Part shown: positions 23,367 through 32,449 of the stretch, one piece after another
Layout: every line of letters begins with the position of its first letter
How positions within the stretch are numbered: position 1 is the first letter of the stretch
Assembly: GCA_002713215.1 (NCBI GenBank)
Contig: PAVO01000017.1
Coordinates: 1-64,000 of the forward strand
DNA length: 64,000 bases
Origin: Crocinitomicaceae bacterium
GTDB taxonomy: Bacteria > Bacteroidota > Bacteroidia > Flavobacteriales_G > Salibacteraceae
Direction: 5' to 3'
Position numbers and translations under genes: made by a program
Notes under the pieces: model-generated
Told to the model about the DNA's origin: nothing
The model's input: only the letters and a program-made list of their open reading frames with translations
Databases searched by the model: none

Positions 23367-23598
23367 TTCCTGCTTAATTCTATGATATTGGTCAAGGAAG
23401 TGAGATTAAGTTTAATAATAATGCGTAAATGAAATAGTATCTTAATTTATTGTTTTATAATGGGTTGTGTGTGTTTTTTAGTTGAAAAATTATGCTCAAT
23501 TTTATGCTCTGAAAGCAAAAACCCAACCATCGAAAAATTTGCAGTCATTCAAGTGAAGACTTCAAACAATTAAAAAATTAAATAACTCAAAATTGAAA

Positions 23599-24849
23599 AT
23601 GATGAAAACAATTAAACTTTTATTACTCATACCCATTTTAGGATTGGCTGGGTTCGCTTATTCAGCTAACTTAACCATTACCGGTAAGGTTACTGATAAC
23701 GGTGTTGCCAAGGCAAACGTTCAGGTTATATATGTTGACAGTAACACCAATAACATGGATACGGCTCTTACGAACAGTGCTGGAAACTATACAATTACGC
23801 TAAATGTTGGGTCAGCGACCCAAGGAATTGCTGTTGGTTATATTACTGATTGTAAACGAAAATATAAGTACAATCACATATTCTATACACCAAGGACCAC
23901 TACTTATTCTAATTATAACTTCGTTTATTGTACTGGAACTCCTGGTGGAGGAAATAAACTGTCTACAGTTTCAGGAATGGTGTACAACGATAGCAATTTA
24001 GCTGGTAATGGTATTGTGATATTAATTGAAAAGAACGGATTAATATTAAAATCGGTGGATACTATGAAAATTACCAGAGGTTGGTACTCGTTTACTTTAC
24101 CTGATAGTACACTAGCTTATTATGTGAAAGCGATACTCGATAAGGCAGATTCCAGATACAGGAGATTTTTGCCTACTTATAGTGACAAAGCTCTTAAATG
24201 GTCTAAAGCTAAGTTAATTGGTAGTGGTAATAATATGACCCACACCAGAGACATTCGAATGGTGAGAGGTAGAAATACTGGAGGCCCTGGATTTGTTGGT
24301 GGAAATGTAAGACGCGGAGCAAATAAATCTTCTGCAACTGGTGATCCAATAGAAGGAGCTCAAATAATGCTTCTTCAGGGAGGCGATGCTGTTGCCTATA
24401 CTTATTCAGATGCTCAAGGCAATTTTTCGATTGATGATTTGGCTTATGGAACGTATACCGTATATACAGAAGAAGCTGGATTGCCAACCGTTACTGCGGA
24501 TGTAACTGTATCTGCTGCGGCTCCTAAGGAAGAAGGGGTTCGAGTAACAATCAATTCTTCAGGGGTTACTACTTCGGTTGAGGTTGTTGGAATTGAATCT
24601 ACTGGAGTTTTTACTCAATTAAGAGCATTTCCAAACCCGGTTCAGGATAACTTTACCATTGAGTTTGGTACACAATTGAACAATGTGAATATTTCAATAT
24701 TGGATTTGACTGGAAAGGTGATTGATAATCAGGAATTGGTTAATTCTTCGGAAGTTAACCTTTCTTTTAGTGATCTTCCTAAAGGAAGTTACCTAATTCG
24801 AGTAAATGCATTGGAAGAAAATAGCGTTATTCGTGTTGTTAAACATTAA
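23599..24849 (+). CDS. T9SS-sorted protein with carboxypeptidase-regulatory-like domains
   Basis: A secreted protein of 416 residues counted from ATG 23599; ATG 23602 is equally plausible and the TTG at 23593 is unlikely. The signal peptide ends GFAYSA. Residues about 25-100 and 230-310 are Ig-like beta-sandwich modules of the CarboxypepD_reg/Cna-B type (LTITGKVTDNGVAKANVQV; GDPIEGAQIMLLQGGDAVAY). A T9SS sorting domain follows (LRAFPNPVQDNF). It lies 2 nt upstream of the first surface-protein/sigma/anti-sigma triad and probably heads that operon. It shares the opening module with the triad surface proteins but is otherwise shorter. Likely a surface structural or adhesive protein. Confidence 0.75.
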   Translation: MMKTIKLLLLIPILGLAGFAYSANLTITGKVTDNGVAKANVQVIYVDSNTNNMDTALTNSAGNYTITLNVGSATQGIAVGYITDCKRKYKYNHIFYTPRTTTYSNYNFVYCTGTPGGGNKLSTVSGMVYNDSNLAGNGIVILIEKNGLILKSVDTMKITRGWYSFTLPDSTLAYYVKAILDKADSRYRRFLPTYSDKALKWSKAKLIGSGNNMTHTRDIRMVRGRNTGGPGFVGGNVRRGANKSSATGDPIEGAQIMLLQGGDAVAYTYSDAQGNFSIDDLAYGTYTVYTEEAGLPTVTADVTVSAAAPKEEGVRVTINSSGVTTSVEVVGIESTGVFTQLRAFPNPVQDNFTIEFGTQLNNVNISILDLTGKVIDNQELVNSSEVNLSFSDLPKGSYLIRVNALEENSVIRVVKH

Positions 24850-24851
24850 GC

Positions 24852-26315
24852 TTGAACCTTAAACAAATCATACTTTTAATTTTACTGTCACTTAGTGGGA
24901 GCTGCGTTATAGCAGCTCCCATTATTGTTTCAGGACTAATAACTGACAATGGAGTTCCTGTACGCAATCAATGGGTACATATAAACGCTCCGGGAGCCGA
25001 TACGAGTTTTATGACCGGACCAGGCGGCAATTATAATGTTGTGGTCAATCCGTCTACTGCTATTGGAACAATGCGTGTTTTCTTTTTATGTAAAAATGAT
25101 ACAACAGATTCAATTGTAGGTTTTGACTCAAGTACTCGTGTTTTAACTGTAAACCTAAACGGATGTGTACCGGTGACCGGATCGGTAACAGTTACAGGCA
25201 ATATTTCCAACAGCCATCTATCTTCTTCACTCATTCGGGTCTATTTCTCCCAGAATAATTTTCGTTCGCTTTTTGATTCTACCCTGGCGGATAGCACAGG
25301 CTTTTTTTCTCATCAGTTCACCAGTTCCGGACCAGGAACGCTGTACACCCGAATTGTAGACTGTGATGGGCAAACGTCCGCCGATTCCACCTGGTTTAAT
25401 TTAAACGATTCCATATCCCAATCCCTGGATTATTGTCCTGTCAAAATGCATGTTGGTATGATTTACAACAGCGGCAGGTTGGTGTCACCAACGGATGCCA
25501 TTTTGCTAAACTACAAATACTTACCAGAAAAGGAGGGTTTTCAGTTTGATGATACGTTAAAGATTCTTTCAAACGGTACATTTCAATTTGTGAATGATAA
25601 GAAAACCGACTACTTATTAAAAGTGATTCCAAAGGATACTGCTATTGGTTTTGCACCAACTTATTACCCCAATGGAATTCAATGGGATAACTCCAATTCT
25701 AAGGCGGTAGGCCCGCATACGCAAGGTGTTTTGAGGATAGATCTTAATCTATTTACTAGAAAGTTGGGAGCGTACTCAATTCGTGGAACGGTAAAAATTG
25801 ATCCTGATTTAATTAAAGATGGATATTCTGCTGTTGGAATTCATTTGTTGGATACCAATAATCAGGTTATTGATTTCACGTTTGCGGATCGGTTTAATGA
25901 TTTTTATTTCAATAACCTTAATGAGGGTCAGTATAAAATTTGGATCGATCAATGTGGAATTCCCACTAACCCTAAGGTTGTAAACCTTTCGAGGACTAAT
26001 CCAACAGTTTCTGATGTTGTATTAACTGCCAATCCTTTAGGTATATCATACGATGAGTTTGTTGGAGTTGAACCAGTTGTAACAGATACTGAACCGGCCC
26101 TATTTCCCAATCCATTTGATGAAATATTGAACCTGAAAATAAAAGAATCAAGCATGATTTCGGTGCATAACATGCAGGGCAAATTAATTCGCGAAGAGGA
26201 ATTTACCGAAGGAGAACTACATAGAATAGAAACTAAAGAATGGCAATCAGGGGTATATGTGATTACAATACAAAACAAAAAGGAGTTGTATAGAAAAAAG
26301 GTGATAAAAAGATAG
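24852..26315 (+). CDS. T9SS surface protein of triad 1
   Basis: A 487-residue secreted protein. It starts with TTG 24852 (TTGAACCTTAAAC), and the paralogue at 28741 begins with the same 13 bases, which supports the unusual start. The signal peptide contains a conserved GSC before the AA-P cleavage region; the residues before the Cys do not make a lipobox. Several Ig/CarboxypepD_reg-like modules follow (IIVSGLITDNGVPV; GSVTVTGNISNS; YSIRGTVKIDPDLIKDGYSAVGIHLLD). A T9SS sorting domain closes it (PALFPNPFDEIL). An ECF sigma gene follows after 14 nt. It may be the surface cargo or the signal source for that sigma/anti-sigma pair. Confidence 0.78.
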   Translation: MNLKQIILLILLSLSGSCVIAAPIIVSGLITDNGVPVRNQWVHINAPGADTSFMTGPGGNYNVVVNPSTAIGTMRVFFLCKNDTTDSIVGFDSSTRVLTVNLNGCVPVTGSVTVTGNISNSHLSSSLIRVYFSQNNFRSLFDSTLADSTGFFSHQFTSSGPGTLYTRIVDCDGQTSADSTWFNLNDSISQSLDYCPVKMHVGMIYNSGRLVSPTDAILLNYKYLPEKEGFQFDDTLKILSNGTFQFVNDKKTDYLLKVIPKDTAIGFAPTYYPNGIQWDNSNSKAVGPHTQGVLRIDLNLFTRKLGAYSIRGTVKIDPDLIKDGYSAVGIHLLDTNNQVIDFTFADRFNDFYFNNLNEGQYKIWIDQCGIPTNPKVVNLSRTNPTVSDVVLTANPLGISYDEFVGVEPVVTDTEPALFPNPFDEILNLKIKESSMISVHNMQGKLIREEEFTEGELHRIETKEWQSGVYVITIQNKKELYRKKVIKR

Positions 26316-26329
26316 GCAGTAAGCCATAC

Positions 26330-26908
26330 ATGGAGGTTGATCGAAAATTAATCGAAGCCTGTATTAAGGGTGATAGAAAGGCTCAACACAAGCTTTATAA
26401 GGATTGCTTTGCTCAACTTCTTAGCATATGTTACCGCTTTGCCAACAATAAGGATGATGCCTGCATCTTGTTAAATGGGGCCTTCTTTAAGGTGCTTAAC
26501 AACTTACATAAGCAGAATGAAGAGATTCCGTTTATGTCGTGGGCCATTCGAATTACTGTAAATCACTGCATAAGTGAATACAGAAAAGAGAATACGAGGA
26601 AAAAACATTTAACCCCTGTTGATCCGGAAGACCTTGAGCATCATGCCGAATTACGTGTTCTGGATGAGGGAGAAAAGGAATATAACCCGGAAGTACTAAA
26701 AAGGGTCCAGGAAGAGGTGCTCAATTTGCCTCCAACTACTCAGGAAGTATTTCAATTATATGTATTTCAGGGGTTTACTCATAATGAGGTAGCTCAACAA
26801 CTGGATATGAAAGAAGGAACTTCTAAATGGCATCTTAATAATGCCAGGAAGATTTTAAAATCGGTGTTGAGTAGTTCATTAAAATTAATGTCAAGCATAG
26901 TGTTATGA
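26330..26908 (+). CDS. ECF-type RNA polymerase sigma factor, triad 1
   Basis: A sigma-70-family extracytoplasmic-function factor of 192 residues with regions 2 and 4 only. Region 2 spans about 10-80 (ACIKGDRKAQHKLY, FMSWAIRITVNHCISEYRK). Region 4 spans about 120-178 (LPPTTQEVFQLYVFQGFTHNEVAQQL, EGTSKWHLNNARKIL). Its ATGA overlap with the next gene, a membrane-spanning putative anti-sigma, fits co-synthesis and control by sequestration. A close paralogue lies at 30216-30794. The target promoters are unknown; autoregulation of the triad is plausible. Confidence 0.88.
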   Translation: MEVDRKLIEACIKGDRKAQHKLYKDCFAQLLSICYRFANNKDDACILLNGAFFKVLNNLHKQNEEIPFMSWAIRITVNHCISEYRKENTRKKHLTPVDPEDLEHHAELRVLDEGEKEYNPEVLKRVQEEVLNLPPTTQEVFQLYVFQGFTHNEVAQQLDMKEGTSKWHLNNARKILKSVLSSSLKLMSSIVL

Positions 26909-28551
26909 TAGACGAAGAAATTGATAAAATTACTAGGGCTGCGTTTCCAGGCGGAGATACTTCTTATGAAGAGAAGTATTGGAAGGACATGGAAAGTGTG
27001 CTGGGTAACTCAGGAAGAAAAAGAGGTTTTATTTTTTGGTGGGGAGCAGGTGCGGTTGCATTGCTGATTTCTGCTGTGGCGGTTATCAATCTGTCAAATT
27101 CACCAAATGAGATATCCGATGATCTTAAGACTAACGCAGCTTTAACTCAGGTCGAACCAAATGATAAAGAGCAAGTAGAAAAGCAAGAAACTACCCCTGA
27201 GCAAAGTGAAAAGATTGAAACGAACGAAACGAATGAAAAATTAAAATCGGTTGAGAAGAACACTGCAGATTACGATAGTAAAAAGGAGAGTATTCAAACT
27301 CATAATGGCCAACAGACAGGTATCACAGAATCTGCTACCATTCAACCAGTACCCACTTCTGGAAAGAAAAAATTGAAAGAATCAAATCAACAATTAGGTA
27401 AAGGTACAGGTGCTTCAATGAAAACCCTGGTTGCAGTTTCGTCGACTCTTGACCAATCTAAGGAAACCTTACCTTCTACTGTCAAAAATGAAAATAAGAC
27501 AGAACAGAATGCCTCACCGGAAGTCAAAACAGTTGAGCTAGCTGAAACGGTCCAAAAAGGGGAAGAAACTTCAGAAGTTTCGGAACCCGAAGTAACCGTC
27601 TATGATAAAAATGATCTGGAAGTGGTAGCTGAAGATAATTCGGAAGAAAAAGATCAAACTATGGCAACAGAAGAACCTGAGGAGGATTCGGACCTTGCGG
27701 AATCAGTTGATGCCACCGCTGAAAAAACTGAATTTGGTGAAAAAGTTAAATCGGGTAATAAGTTTAAGTGGTTCATACAGCCTTCACTGTCCATTTCTAC
27801 TTCTCAAAAGGGTGAAGTGAGCCTAGTAGAAACCAAATCTTCAAGCTCTCATATAAGTCCAAGTGCTATTCGCGAGTGGAATGGTGGAATTGAAGCAGGT
27901 GTACGTTATGGCTCTTTTTACTTGCTAAGCGGACTCCGTTTTCAGGAGTTTAATCAATCGTTTTCCATTAGAACGGTTACGACAGACATAAAGGATGAAT
28001 ATCAATACAATCAGCGTGATAAGATTGAAAGTATTGATCGTACGCTGATTCGTAACATTATTGTTAAGGTTCCCGATGGGAATGATTTCATTTTTAAAGT
28101 AGCCGGAAGCGAATATTCTACAGATACTAACTGGACAACAGTAACTGATACCGTGGTTAATAGTAAGGAGATAGTAAGCGAAGAGGAATTGAGCATTAAT
28201 TACAAATTGCAGTACTTAAGCGTGCCGTTAAGGGTAGGGTTTGAACATGTACTTGGAGAAAAATGGTTGGTTGAAACTTCTATCGGCGCCAACTTTGGTT
28301 TCCTGATCAGTCAGTCGGGAAGCGTATTTAACTCAAATACGAATGACGTCGTTGTGGTCGGGCAATCAGCTTCAATTGCTAAATCTACCATTAGCAGTTC
28401 ATTCGGAGTAGGAGTCGGGTACTTATTAACCCCTGACCTTTCGCTACGACTGAATCCTACTTATCGATACATGATTAAAGGGCCTAATAAGGACCTCATT
28501 AACCAGTCTAATTTCTTTGGGGTGGGTATGCAAATTCGATATGTGTTTTAG
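26905..28551 (+). CDS. dual-membrane-spanning anti-sigma/beta-barrel protein, triad 1
   Basis: A 548-residue protein with an unusual layout. A short cytoplasmic N-terminus (MIDEEIDKITRAAF ... YWKDMESVL, 1-40) could bind the sigma factor. One inner-membrane helix follows at 42-63. Then comes a long acidic low-complexity linker (64-285, rich in Glu, Lys, Thr, Ser). The C-terminal PorT-like outer-membrane beta-barrel runs from about 286 to 548, ending in an aromatic residue (QIRYVF). This matches the dual membrane-spanning anti-sigma (Dma) class described in Bacteroides, in which one chain links barrel and sigma factor. It overlaps the sigma gene by 4 nt. No zinc-finger anti-sigma motif is present. 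Confidence 0.82.
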   Translation: MIDEEIDKITRAAFPGGDTSYEEKYWKDMESVLGNSGRKRGFIFWWGAGAVALLISAVAVINLSNSPNEISDDLKTNAALTQVEPNDKEQVEKQETTPEQSEKIETNETNEKLKSVEKNTADYDSKKESIQTHNGQQTGITESATIQPVPTSGKKKLKESNQQLGKGTGASMKTLVAVSSTLDQSKETLPSTVKNENKTEQNASPEVKTVELAETVQKGEETSEVSEPEVTVYDKNDLEVVAEDNSEEKDQTMATEEPEEDSDLAESVDATAEKTEFGEKVKSGNKFKWFIQPSLSISTSQKGEVSLVETKSSSSHISPSAIREWNGGIEAGVRYGSFYLLSGLRFQEFNQSFSIRTVTTDIKDEYQYNQRDKIESIDRTLIRNIIVKVPDGNDFIFKVAGSEYSTDTNWTTVTDTVVNSKEIVSEEELSINYKLQYLSVPLRVGFEHVLGEKWLVETSIGANFGFLISQSGSVFNSNTNDVVVVGQSASIAKSTISSSFGVGVGYLLTPDLSLRLNPTYRYMIKGPNKDLINQSNFFGVGMQIRYVF

Positions 28552-28658
28552 AATTTGTATAAACCTCAACCGGCTGAATTAAAGAGGGGTAAGACATCTT
28601 AATATATTTTCTTAATACAACCAAACCTTTTTAATTTTACGAGTCTATATACTGAATC

Positions 28659-28666
28659 TAGATTTG
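28659..28666 (+). promoter_or_regulatory. candidate promoter -7 element of triad 2
   Basis: TAGATTTG matches TAnnTTTG, about 75 bp before the TTG start at 28741. No convincing TTG -33 element is at the right distance. A sigma-specific promoter could lie elsewhere in the 189-bp gap: ATCTTAATATATTTTCTTAAT near 28599 resembles ATCTTAATTTATTGTTTTAT upstream of the first triad's operon near 23441. Confidence 0.35.
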
Positions 28667-28740
28667 TGAGTTCGCTCAAGGGATTATGCAGAATTTTACA
28701 TTTCCAGTAGCAGTATTTAATAGATTAATGCATTAAGAAT

Positions 28741-30201
28741 TTGAACCTTAAACTTTTAATACTATCATTTTTACTGTTTATAAAAGGAAGCTGCCTAATG
28801 GCGGCTTCCTTTAATGTTTTTGGCCAGGTTACCAACAATGGCCTTCCTGCTCCTAACCAGGTGGTTTATGTTCAGGCCACTGGTGCAGATACCAATTTTA
28901 GAACCGATACACTCGGAAATTATTTCGCTTCCATAAAATCAACCATTCAAAATGGAATCGTAAGAATTTTCTTTGTCGATTGTAAGGGGGATACTGTAGA
29001 AGCTAACAGGACCTTTACTAATCTAACCCGTTCCATATATTCAAGGTTACAAGGTTGTCCGCCTGCCGGAAAAGTACTGGTATCAGGTACTGTTAAAACC
29101 TATATGCAAGCTTCTCGCTTTATCAGTGTTTATTTTTCTAAGGATAATTTTCGCACCTATTTCGATTCTACAAAAACCGGCCTTCTTGGAAAATTCTTTG
29201 AACAATACTATACCAAAGGAGCAGGTAAATTGTATGTAAGAATCAGAGATTGTGAGGATAATTGGATTTTTGATTCACTGCCCTATAATGCTTCGGATAC
29301 CTTAAGTTTTACGCTCAACTTTTGTAAAAACACAGATAAGGTTTATCATGGAACGATAAACCTAAATTCTAAGGCAATAAAACCTGATGAAGCATTTATG
29401 TTGCGTTACAAATTCAATCCGGTTAGGAAAAATTTTGAATTTGTAGATTCTATTTCCGTTAATAAGCACGGTTCCTTCCACTTTCCAAAAGACAGTGTTA
29501 ATGAGTATTTATTAAAGGTGCTTCCAACGGATGCATCTCGGTTTTCCGCTACTTACTACCCAAACGGGATTAAATGGAATCATAGCAATGCGCGTTCAAT
29601 AGGAATTCATTTGAATAACCCGCTAAGGGTTTATTTAAAAGATTATCCATCACCATCAGGAACTTATAGAATAAGTGGTGTAGTGGAAGTCGATAATGGG
29701 TTTAAACGAGCAGGTTACGGAGCGGTGGGAATTCATTTGCTGGATAATTCGGATAAGGTTATTGGTTTTACTTATGCTAACAGAGCCGGTAGTTTTTCGT
29801 TTGATAATTTGGATGCCGGAAGCTATCGGGTATGGATTGATCAATGTGGTCTTCCCACTGAAAACAAGATTATTTCGCTGAATGCAAATAACCCGGTTGA
29901 AGATAATCTGGTTATAACGGCAAACAATAACGGGGTTTACTTCGATGAATTCCTAGGCTTAAATGAAGCATACTCCGAATCTGAAACCCAGGTTTACCCC
30001 AATCCTTTTGCCGATGTTATCAATTTGGTTTCGAAGGATTATGGGACGGTTACCGTTCAGGATATGATGGGTAGAATTGTATATTCAAATAATTATGTAA
30101 AAAATGAAGAAATCCGAACGGATAATTGGGAGGAAGGAGTTTACCTGATCACCGTTCAAAATAAAAAGGGATTGTATAGAAGGAAGCTTGTAAAAAAATA
30201 A
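28741..30201 (+). CDS. T9SS surface protein of triad 2
   Basis: A 486-residue paralogue of the protein at 24852-26315. It has the same TTG start sequence, GSC-containing signal peptide, CarboxypepD_reg-like modules (FNVFGQVTNNGLPAPNQVV; YRISGVVEVDNGFKRAGYGAVG) and T9SS sorting domain (TQVYPNPFADVI ... EEGVYLITVQNKKGLYRRK). Shared segments include RVYFSQNNFRS / SVYFSKDNFRT and the WIDQCG motif. It precedes the second ECF sigma gene by 14 nt, the same spacing as in triad 1. Enough divergence has built up that the two may recognise different partners. Confidence 0.78.
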   Translation: MNLKLLILSFLLFIKGSCLMAASFNVFGQVTNNGLPAPNQVVYVQATGADTNFRTDTLGNYFASIKSTIQNGIVRIFFVDCKGDTVEANRTFTNLTRSIYSRLQGCPPAGKVLVSGTVKTYMQASRFISVYFSKDNFRTYFDSTKTGLLGKFFEQYYTKGAGKLYVRIRDCEDNWIFDSLPYNASDTLSFTLNFCKNTDKVYHGTINLNSKAIKPDEAFMLRYKFNPVRKNFEFVDSISVNKHGSFHFPKDSVNEYLLKVLPTDASRFSATYYPNGIKWNHSNARSIGIHLNNPLRVYLKDYPSPSGTYRISGVVEVDNGFKRAGYGAVGIHLLDNSDKVIGFTYANRAGSFSFDNLDAGSYRVWIDQCGLPTENKIISLNANNPVEDNLVITANNNGVYFDEFLGLNEAYSESETQVYPNPFADVINLVSKDYGTVTVQDMMGRIVYSNNYVKNEEIRTDNWEEGVYLITVQNKKGLYRRKLVKK

Positions 30202-30215
30202 AGTACTGCCGTGAT

Positions 30216-30794
30216 ATGAAGGTGGATCGGAAGCTAATTGGAGCCTGTATTAAAGGCGATCGAAGGGCTCAGCGCGAGCTCTATGGGCTATGCCTTGATC
30301 AATTGTTAGGTGTTTGCTTCCGGTTTGCGAACAACGAAGACGATGCTTCTATCCTTCTGAACGAGGCATTTTTCAAGATTTTAGAGAATCTGGAAAATCA
30401 AAATAAAGAGGTTCCCTTTATGGCCTGGGCAACCCGAATAACGGTAAATCACTGCATAAGTGAATATCGGAAAGACAGAACCAGAAAGCGGGTAATTACC
30501 GCAATGGAACCGGAAGACCTGGACCAGTCTTCTCAATTGAGAATATTGGATGATGAGAAATTTGAATATGATCCAAGACTTTTAAAGAAGGTACGAAAGG
30601 AAATTTTAAACCTACCACCCATGACCCAGGAGGTTTTCCAGTTGTATGTTTTTCAAAATTGTTCTCATTACGAGGTGGCGGAGTTGTTGGGAATTAAAGA
30701 GGGAACATCAAAATGGCATTTGTTTAATGCGCGCAGTATATTGAGAGAAGCATTAATTGATGACATGAAAGAAGTAACAAGTATAGCCTTATGA
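30216..30794 (+). CDS. ECF-type RNA polymerase sigma factor, triad 2
   Basis: A 192-residue ECF sigma factor, the same length as its paralogue at 26330 and clearly homologous throughout (DRKLIGACIKGDRRAQREL; ITVNHCISEYRKDRTRKR; LPPMTQEVFQLYVFQNCSHYEVAELL). The region 4 recognition segment differs in places, so promoter specificity may have shifted. It overlaps the following anti-sigma gene by 4 nt. It would be released when the associated envelope-spanning protein senses its signal; this follows from the Dma model, not from the sequence directly. Confidence 0.87.
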   Translation: MKVDRKLIGACIKGDRRAQRELYGLCLDQLLGVCFRFANNEDDASILLNEAFFKILENLENQNKEVPFMAWATRITVNHCISEYRKDRTRKRVITAMEPEDLDQSSQLRILDDEKFEYDPRLLKKVRKEILNLPPMTQEVFQLYVFQNCSHYEVAELLGIKEGTSKWHLFNARSILREALIDDMKEVTSIAL

Positions 30795-32449
30795 CAGACG
30801 AGGAAATCGATAAGTTGTCAAGAGCGTCATTTCGCAACTCCCGCGCTGCTAATGAAGCAAAGCTTTGGAGTGACATGGAAAAGATTCTCGACGAAAGGGG
30901 AAGCAAGGGGGGCGGTTTCTATTGGCCGGCACTTGGAGCTGTGGTTCTGGTTGTTGCGACTGCATTGGGGTGGTTTGTTATTAGCGACACATCAAAAAGC
31001 ATTATAACACCAACAGAAGATCAAATTGTAGAAAATCAAAAGACTATCAATCCTGAGTCCAATGCCAACGATATCGATTCGAAAAGCGATCAGCCTATAC
31101 GAACTGAGGAATTACAGGGCAATGATGCTAAACCTTTGACCAAGTCAATAAGTAAAACTGCGATTAAACAAGAAAAGCCAATTGAAGCAACGAGTAAGAC
31201 TAACGTAGAAAAGGCTAGCATCCTAAATGAAGAAAGTACTCCTCAAAACGGGGAAGCTTTGTTAGTTGCATCTGTTACTCAACCAGTGGACACTAAACCT
31301 GAAGAGGAAAACAACCTAAGTCTGATTACTGAAATGAGTGCAGGACAAACCATAAACAAGGTTTCCAAAGTCAATGAGGCGAATGAAAATAGTGTTGGGC
31401 TGGAAACATCGCAATCAATAGAAGAAGAAACTCCTGAATCGGTAGAAATCACAAATTCGGAGCAGGGAGCGAATCAAGAAGATAATTCTATAGCATTAGT
31501 GGACGTTTCGGCCATTGAAAACCCTCAGGAGAATTCAGAACAGAAAGTTGATGTACAGGAAGATTCACAGGAAACGATGGCGATTGCAGAAGGAGAAATC
31601 AAAGCAGATGAACCAATCAATACAGAAACCGAATTCGGGGAAGAGCTAAACTCAAACTCTAGGATTCGATTTTTTGTTCAACCCCGATTTAGTTATTTTA
31701 ATTCGGAGAAGGAAAAGGAGTATTATATAGAAACCACATCGTCTAATTCTCATATTAACACTTCAAGAATGAAGGACTGGAGTGCTGGAATTGATGCTGG
31801 GGTTCAGTTTAATAAATTCTATATCAAAACCGGATTACACTATCAGGAACTAAACCAGTCGTTCTCTATACGTACCCAAACCACAGAAATAATAGATAAT
31901 TACGAATATGAGGATCGACTCATTGGAACTGAAATAGTACAGTCAGGTACAAGGTACGAAGTGTTTAAAGTTCCGGTAGGTAGTGGGTTTTCTTACCGGG
32001 GTCAATCCATTGCGATTTACGACACCAACGACGTTTTTGTCACTGATACCATTATCAATAAAACGGAATTAGTCGTTGAAACCCAATCTACGCTTAGCTA
32101 TACATTGAAATATTTTCAAGTGCCTTTGATGGTTGGTTATGAACATGTATTAGGGGCAAGATGGTTGATCGATGTATCCGGAGGTATAAATCTTGGTATT
32201 CTTGCTGGTCAGTCGGGAAGTACGTTTAACAACAATTCTGAAGAGGTGGTTTCATTACTGGGATCTTCTCACCCCTCTAAGACCACAGTTTCCTATTTAG
32301 TTAATGTTGGAGTAGGGTATATGTTAGGCCCTGATATGTCAATTAATTTAACCCCAAGCTACAAATACCTGGGGAATGGGCCATTTAATTACAGTGAAAG
32401 TCAACGAAGCTTTTATGGGGTTGATCTTGGTCTTCGATATAAGTTTTAA
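30791..32449 (+). CDS. dual-membrane-spanning anti-sigma/beta-barrel protein, triad 2
   Basis: A 552-residue paralogue of the protein at 26905. The cytoplasmic N-terminus (MTDEEIDKLSRASF ... LWSDMEKIL) is similar. One membrane helix lies at about 44-64, followed by a long Glu/Ser/Asn/Gln-rich linker (about 65-290). A C-terminal outer-membrane barrel runs from about 291 to 552 and ends LGLRYKF. The linker sequences hardly align although both are acidic and about 220 residues long, while the two ends are conserved. That is what a length-constrained tether across the periplasm would show. Sigma partner: the gene it overlaps at 30791-30794. Confidence 0.82.
   Translation: MTDEEIDKLSRASFRNSRAANEAKLWSDMEKILDERGSKGGGFYWPALGAVVLVVATALGWFVISDTSKSIITPTEDQIVENQKTINPESNANDIDSKSDQPIRTEELQGNDAKPLTKSISKTAIKQEKPIEATSKTNVEKASILNEESTPQNGEALLVASVTQPVDTKPEEENNLSLITEMSAGQTINKVSKVNEANENSVGLETSQSIEEETPESVEITNSEQGANQEDNSIALVDVSAIENPQENSEQKVDVQEDSQETMAIAEGEIKADEPINTETEFGEELNSNSRIRFFVQPRFSYFNSEKEKEYYIETTSSNSHINTSRMKDWSAGIDAGVQFNKFYIKTGLHYQELNQSFSIRTQTTEIIDNYEYEDRLIGTEIVQSGTRYEVFKVPVGSGFSYRGQSIAIYDTNDVFVTDTIINKTELVVETQSTLSYTLKYFQVPLMVGYEHVLGARWLIDVSGGINLGILAGQSGSTFNNNSEEVVSLLGSSHPSKTTVSYLVNVGVGYMLGPDMSINLTPSYKYLGNGPFNYSESQRSFYGVDLGLRYKF

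Follow-up and report, generated by a model that had tools for sequence, protein, structure and literature searches.

We analyzed the first 64,000 nt of contig PAVO01000017.1 from a Crocinitomicaceae bacterium (assembly GCA_002713215.1; hereafter, the window), in which the gene order surface protein, ECF sigma factor, and anti-sigma/barrel protein is present twice in succession (Table 1). Re-reading of all six open reading frames of the originally predicted pair of triads returned exactly the doubled order, the coordinates, and the protein lengths (487/486, 192/192, and 548/552 aa), together with the 14-nt gap between the surface and sigma genes, the 4-nt overlap (ATGA) of the sigma and anti-sigma genes, and the TTG start sequence common to s1 and s2, TTGAACCTTAAA. 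The three genes assigned to unit 1 from position 24852 onward were correct, but the extent of this unit was not: it is led by the additional surface gene A0, whose stop codon lies 2 nt ahead of the s1 start, and the array is therefore composed of a tetrad (unit 1) and a triad (unit 2). Orthologues of A0 occupy the matching place in four relatives.

Table 1. Genes and predicted promoters of the two-unit array in the window.
Feature	Position	Strand	Evidence
Predicted autoregulatory ECF promoter, unit 1	23523..23548	+	-35 CCAACC, 15 nt, -10 GTCAT; motif and genome scan
Surface gene A0, 418 aa, leads unit 1	23593..24849	+	T9SS type A sorting domain, CarboxypepD_reg domains
Surface gene s1, 487 aa, TTG start	24852..26315	+	Signal peptide, several Ig/transthyretin-like domains, type A sorting domain 417-487
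ECF sigma factor 1, 192 aa	26330..26908	+	Sigma70_r4_2 5e-10, Sigma70_r2 2.3e-7, TIGR02937 1.3e-20
Dma-like anti-sigma 1, 548 aa	26905..28551	+	Model, hydropathy, OMP_b-brl 2.9e-5, fold likeness
Predicted autoregulatory ECF promoter, unit 2	28622..28647	+	-35 CAAACC, 15 nt, -10 GTCTA; motif and genome scan
Surface gene s2, 486 aa, s1 paralogue	28741..30201	+	41% identity to s1 over the whole length; PF18962 6.7e-11
ECF sigma factor 2, 192 aa	30216..30794	+	64% identity to sigma 1; TIGR02937 3.7e-22
Dma-like anti-sigma 2, 552 aa	30791..32449	+	34% identity to anti-sigma 1; OMP_b-brl_2 2.3e-9; hydropathy

All three surface proteins have the traits of type A cargo of the type IX secretion system (T9SS), a signal peptide and a C-terminal type A sorting domain, with matches to both PF18962 and TIGR04183 above the cut-offs (8.9e-14 and 5.5e-11 for A0; 7.7e-13 and 4.3e-12 for s1). 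The genome encodes the T9SS translocon (SprA_N, 5.3e-156) and at least 150 genes with sorting domains. The structural model of s1 (pLDDT 80) is all beta, with a predicted N-terminal helix at residues 3-16. Foldseek matches of the surface protein were the Ig stalks of adhesins and pilins, at low TM-scores, and we therefore claim only a general Ig-like fold for these proteins.

The two sigma factors match general ECF models (Table 1), and each is followed by a protein predicted to span the whole envelope. The model of anti-sigma 1 contains two short cytoplasmic helices (residues 3-13 and 23-34), a membrane helix at 44-61 with pLDDT under 50, disorder to about residue 272, and an eight-stranded barrel at 287-548, mostly with pLDDT above 85. 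Hydropathy indicates a single membrane helix in each copy (best 19-residue values of 2.22 at 43-61 in anti-sigma 1 and 2.30 at 47-65 in anti-sigma 2), and anti-sigma 2 likewise has a disordered linker and a barrel. In the model the linker is long enough to cross the periplasm, and the barrel carries unusually long beta hairpins at residues 338-450. Among solved structures, the barrel most resembles NspA (Z 17.5), OprF (17.3), and OmpA (16.2), and weak matches to PorP/SprF-like barrels were obtained for just 2 of 26 relatives (1.6e-4). The N-terminal cytoplasmic segment, with conserved D7 and W26, gave no match to an anti-sigma domain in Pfam or NCBIfam, and cysteine is absent from both anti-sigma copies. 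The tetrapeptide TEFG at the linker/barrel junction (residues 278-281 of anti-sigma 1) recurs in the family described below, in the majority of its type A members and in many of type B.

The FecI-FecR-FecA type of signaling, in which an outer-membrane signal likewise reaches an ECF sigma factor, depends on a regulator with a FecR domain and on a TonB-dependent receptor. A domain search of the seven proteins of the array found no FecR domain or TonB receptor domain, and plain TonB/FecR-type signaling was thus rejected for the window units; a classical ECF sigma/FecR-like/TonB-receptor locus in the same genome (L033:1271-5491) provides a useful contrast. In both units the anti-sigma proteins instead combine the traits of the Dma proteins: a gene directly beside the ECF sigma gene, one inner-membrane helix near the N-terminus, and, according to the model, a periplasm-crossing segment with a C-terminal outer-membrane barrel. 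They share the layout of Dma1/Dma2 and of EcfO-Reo, a likeness of architecture that we drew from the published descriptions. The sigma partner of a Dma protein belongs to group ECF21; for the window sigmas, the matches are to general ECF models.

Pairwise comparison by BLASTP left no room for chance likeness of the triads, with E-values of 6e-135 for the surface proteins, 2.5e-96 for the sigma factors, and 6e-95 for the anti-sigma proteins, and the trees led to the same conclusion. Genome-wide, the best match of each gene was its partner in the other unit. The window copies were recovered as sisters in the sigma tree (98/98), the anti-sigma tree (99/98), the surface protein tree (98/96), and the concatenation (100/99), so that the gene pairs are each other's closest relatives, as the original prediction had implied. 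Pairing of copy 1 or copy 2 with its nearest orthologue was rejected (AU p 0.0014 and 0.0015), as was forcing either copy together with G004, with genus g10, or outside the other four type A units (AU p <=0.0015); for sigma alone, the alternative topologies had AU p of 0.0025 to 0.039. It is accordingly highly improbable that the two units were gained separately from different relatives, even with identities as low as those in Table 1. Four-fold sites under identical residues were identical at 19/69, 6/26, and 19/57 positions, which is at or near random; synonymous sites are saturated, and the duplication is therefore old. The divergence between the copies is about that between orthologues of other genera, and recent duplication or gene conversion was excluded by the near-random four-fold sites together with a longest identical in-frame run of 23 nt. 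The matching spacing of the two units, originally offered as an argument for a functional unit, was inherited with the duplication and is thus not independent evidence; a conserved unit is supported by the occurrence of the matching triad or tetrad in single copy in related genera, and its retention by the intactness of both copies despite saturated synonymous sites. The unit 2 branch was longer in all trees (0.90 versus 0.59 in the concatenation), as might be expected of a redundant copy without a function of its own, but its three genes and promoter have stayed intact over the same long period, and we consider such redundancy improbable. Between the sigma copies, identity is 72% in region 2 and 69% in region 4; between the anti-sigma copies it is 48% in the cytoplasmic part, 30% in the membrane helix, 23% in the periplasmic linker, and 44% in the barrel; and between the surface proteins it is 39-46% in the domains and 40% in the sorting domain. 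Linker and barrel are thus more diverged than sigma, which makes the originally suggested divergence of the inputs of the two units plausible.

A search for further copies in the genome, as the original prediction had proposed, revealed a full triad on contig C18 (L028), which belongs to a second type (type B), and a more distant triad of like make-up on contig C19 (L029). The C19 triad is followed in the same direction by a gene for a 370-aa lipoprotein-like PKD protein (L029:2373-3485). Two more sigma/Dma-like pairs adjoin T9SS-sorted genes in divergent and downstream positions (L031:3562-6884 and L032:2306-5304). Such pairs, on C51 and at C17:185 kb, were left uncounted as triads since the T9SS gene there is divergent or downstream. 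An unusual relative is encoded beside a malate-dehydrogenase-like gene on contig C55 (L030:5022-6939 in G000), where an ECF sigma gene overlaps that of an anti-sigma-like protein with a membrane helix and, apparently, PKD-like repeats in place of the barrel.

The sigma, anti-sigma, and surface protein trees agree on two types, A (both window units and members in G004, G009, G017, G025, and G011) and B (C18 and members in G004, G009, G011, G017, G022, and G025), the named relatives being uncultured Flavobacteriales, including Crocinitomicaceae. The three trees are congruent through the duplication, showing that the unit was co-inherited; outside this subfamily, most sigma/Dma pairs are without an upstream surface gene. 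In other genera, almost every type A or type B unit shows the 4-nt overlap of the sigma and anti-sigma genes. Related genomes carry single copies or, in genus g10, a B-then-A tandem; the latter (G009, G017, G025) pairs type B with type A and was thus ruled out as the same event. Agreement of the trees on the types, together with the sisterhood of the window copies, indicates that the ancestor had both A and B and that the A triad was copied in the window lineage. The duplicated part is the A triad only, without the leading gene A0, placed downstream of itself. Several relatives show local peculiarities. At L065:10309-11946, on the record that also includes L080, a stop divides the type A anti-sigma gene into two frames (145 and 358 aa), by real loss or assembly error, and the sigma and surface genes look whole. 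At L073:3821-6550, a Dma-like gene lies between two ECF sigma genes. The GTG start listed for L070:8345-9976 (with L190) is too late, an upstream ATG with a signal peptide being present shortly after a GTC box.

The first gene of every unit is preceded by a MAACC box resembling a -35 element and by GTC or CGT resembling a -10 element. The motif was first spotted by eye, after an enumerative 4+4-mer search of the regions ahead of the triads had returned only poly-T, and was then scored by leave-one-out against 136 control upstream regions. The type A units, and C18 and L068 among the type B units, scored above all 136 controls; not every remaining type B unit reached this level, which is explained by the scoring model, as it mixes two -10 classes and put the C19 site in the wrong place. 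In 50 of 73 sigma/Dma loci of Bacteroidota (L084-L158), compared to 0.75 expected from shuffles, AAC[CT]-N16-CGT stood no more than 150 nt ahead of the sigma gene or, where a surface gene leads, ahead of that gene. No neighboring spacing exceeded 6, and AAC[CT]-N16-CGT is likely the common autoregulatory promoter of Dma operons. Genome-wide, AACYN16CGTW showed no excess (519 versus 1063 in the control), so this motif is meaningful only near a start. Type B operons have the CGT class in most cases. Type A operons have CMAACC or MAACC, 15 nt, and GTC in all seven units, including the G011 operon, which was obtained after the rule was written and reads CAACC-N15-GTC. Region 2 of sigma is N[HY]CI...YRK..TRK in all six alignable type A members and instead NCCI..YRK in type B. 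Conservation and covariation thus point to a private predicted promoter class of type A, in step with a changed sigma region 2.

The strict pattern CMAACC-N14/15-GTCWW occurred at 34 sites in the genome, of which 32 lie inside open reading frames (frames of at least 90 codons, a limit that could hide a few intergenic sites); the only two others precede units 1 and 2. We rejected an extensive regulon of type A, as the strict pattern was not in excess (34 versus 57 in the reversed control) in addition to its mostly genic location. The intergenic occurrence of the private motif only before these two operons suggests a closed self-activating circuit, and the simplest reading is that the two sigmas would mainly drive their own operons. 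Since both operons share the private promoter class, each of the two sigmas can probably activate both, although such cross-activation is a guess from promoter likeness.

We consider it probable that the array encodes a paralogous pair of Dma-like circuits for surface proteins, each of them self-activating. The short cytoplasmic segment of the anti-sigma protein would hold sigma at the inner membrane. A change at the barrel, caused by outer-membrane stress or by binding of a surface ligand, would run along the linker and free sigma, which would then transcribe its own operon, so that surface protein, sigma, and inhibitor would rise together. The pair would represent two inputs (barrels 1 and 2) that converge on one small common output, and it would be insulated from the genome's type B triad.

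Published systems offer precedents for such a circuit. Dma1 and Dma2 repress their sigma and, like the window proteins, follow an ECF sigma gene as one protein spanning from the outer membrane to the cytosol, known from Bacteroidota only; however, the study consulted describes no T9SS-sorted surface gene in their operons, whereas here a surface gene leads and the -10 element is GTC (PMC13088901). The EcfO-Reo pair of Bacteroides fragilis and the BcpT-induced pair of Phocaeicola vulgatus also have a periplasm-crossing anti-sigma factor with a C-terminal barrel, and pairs of this type are strongly self-induced, with a small regulon that includes surface lipoproteins (NigD) (PMC9308784, PMC13114119). 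The P. vulgatus pair acts in the manner proposed here: the sigma gene was upregulated 33-fold on toxin exposure and 15 genes were changed in the anti-sigma mutant (PMC9308784). The output of EcfO-Reo is NigD lipoproteins and O-antigen length, in contrast to the T9SS-sorted Ig-like proteins encoded inside the window operons. In Porphyromonas gingivalis, the T9SS-sorted surface protein PorA is tied to the ECF sigma factor SigP, but this occurs through the two-component system PorXY, controls the T9SS machinery, and involves no envelope-spanning anti-sigma factor (PMC7712824).

These precedents bear on what the surface protein does in the favored circuit. It may be an output only, as NigD is for EcfO-Reo (PMC9308784, PMC13114119), with both barrels sensing the same general outer-membrane damage; we regard this as possible at slightly less than even chances. 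The position of the promoter before the surface gene is consistent with it, but the faster divergence of linker and barrel compared to sigma would be odd for identical inputs, although such parts diverge fast anyway. Alternatively, the surface protein could itself be the signal or sensor, docking on its own barrel after export and holding or freeing sigma, so that the cell would gauge export or surface occupancy, much as PorA feeds PorXY-SigP. Arguments for this role are that the surface gene was strictly inherited together with its own sigma and Dma genes through the duplication, that long hairpins are predicted in the barrel, and that PorA sets a precedent for action of T9SS-sorted proteins on an ECF sigma factor (PMC7712824). 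We nevertheless rate it as rather unlikely, and the lack of an upstream surface gene in most sigma/Dma pairs outside the subfamily indicates that the barrel needs none in general. A broader proposal, in which the protein exported by the T9SS serves as ligand for the envelope-spanning anti-sigma factor of its own unit, and promoter specificity split from the rest of the Dma family, preventing cross-talk between circuits in one genome, with two lines present after the duplication, is in our judgment rather unlikely.

The kind of switch represented by these circuits is already known from Dma, whereas its pairing with a secreted surface protein and its private promoter appear to be new; a limited literature search found no description of a T9SS-sorted gene within a Dma operon or of a type-specific promoter switch. 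The locus bears on the question of what Dma-type proteins sense and control outside gut Bacteroides, and the question becomes testable here, as the operon itself encodes the likely output and perhaps also the ligand. AAC[CT]-N16-CGT offers a handle to find Dma regulons across Bacteroidota. The switch of type A to GTC, with a changed sigma region 2, would illustrate how paralogous sigma circuits become insulated in nature, and to this the window adds a later duplication in which the promoter class is still shared and the barrels and linkers have diverged.
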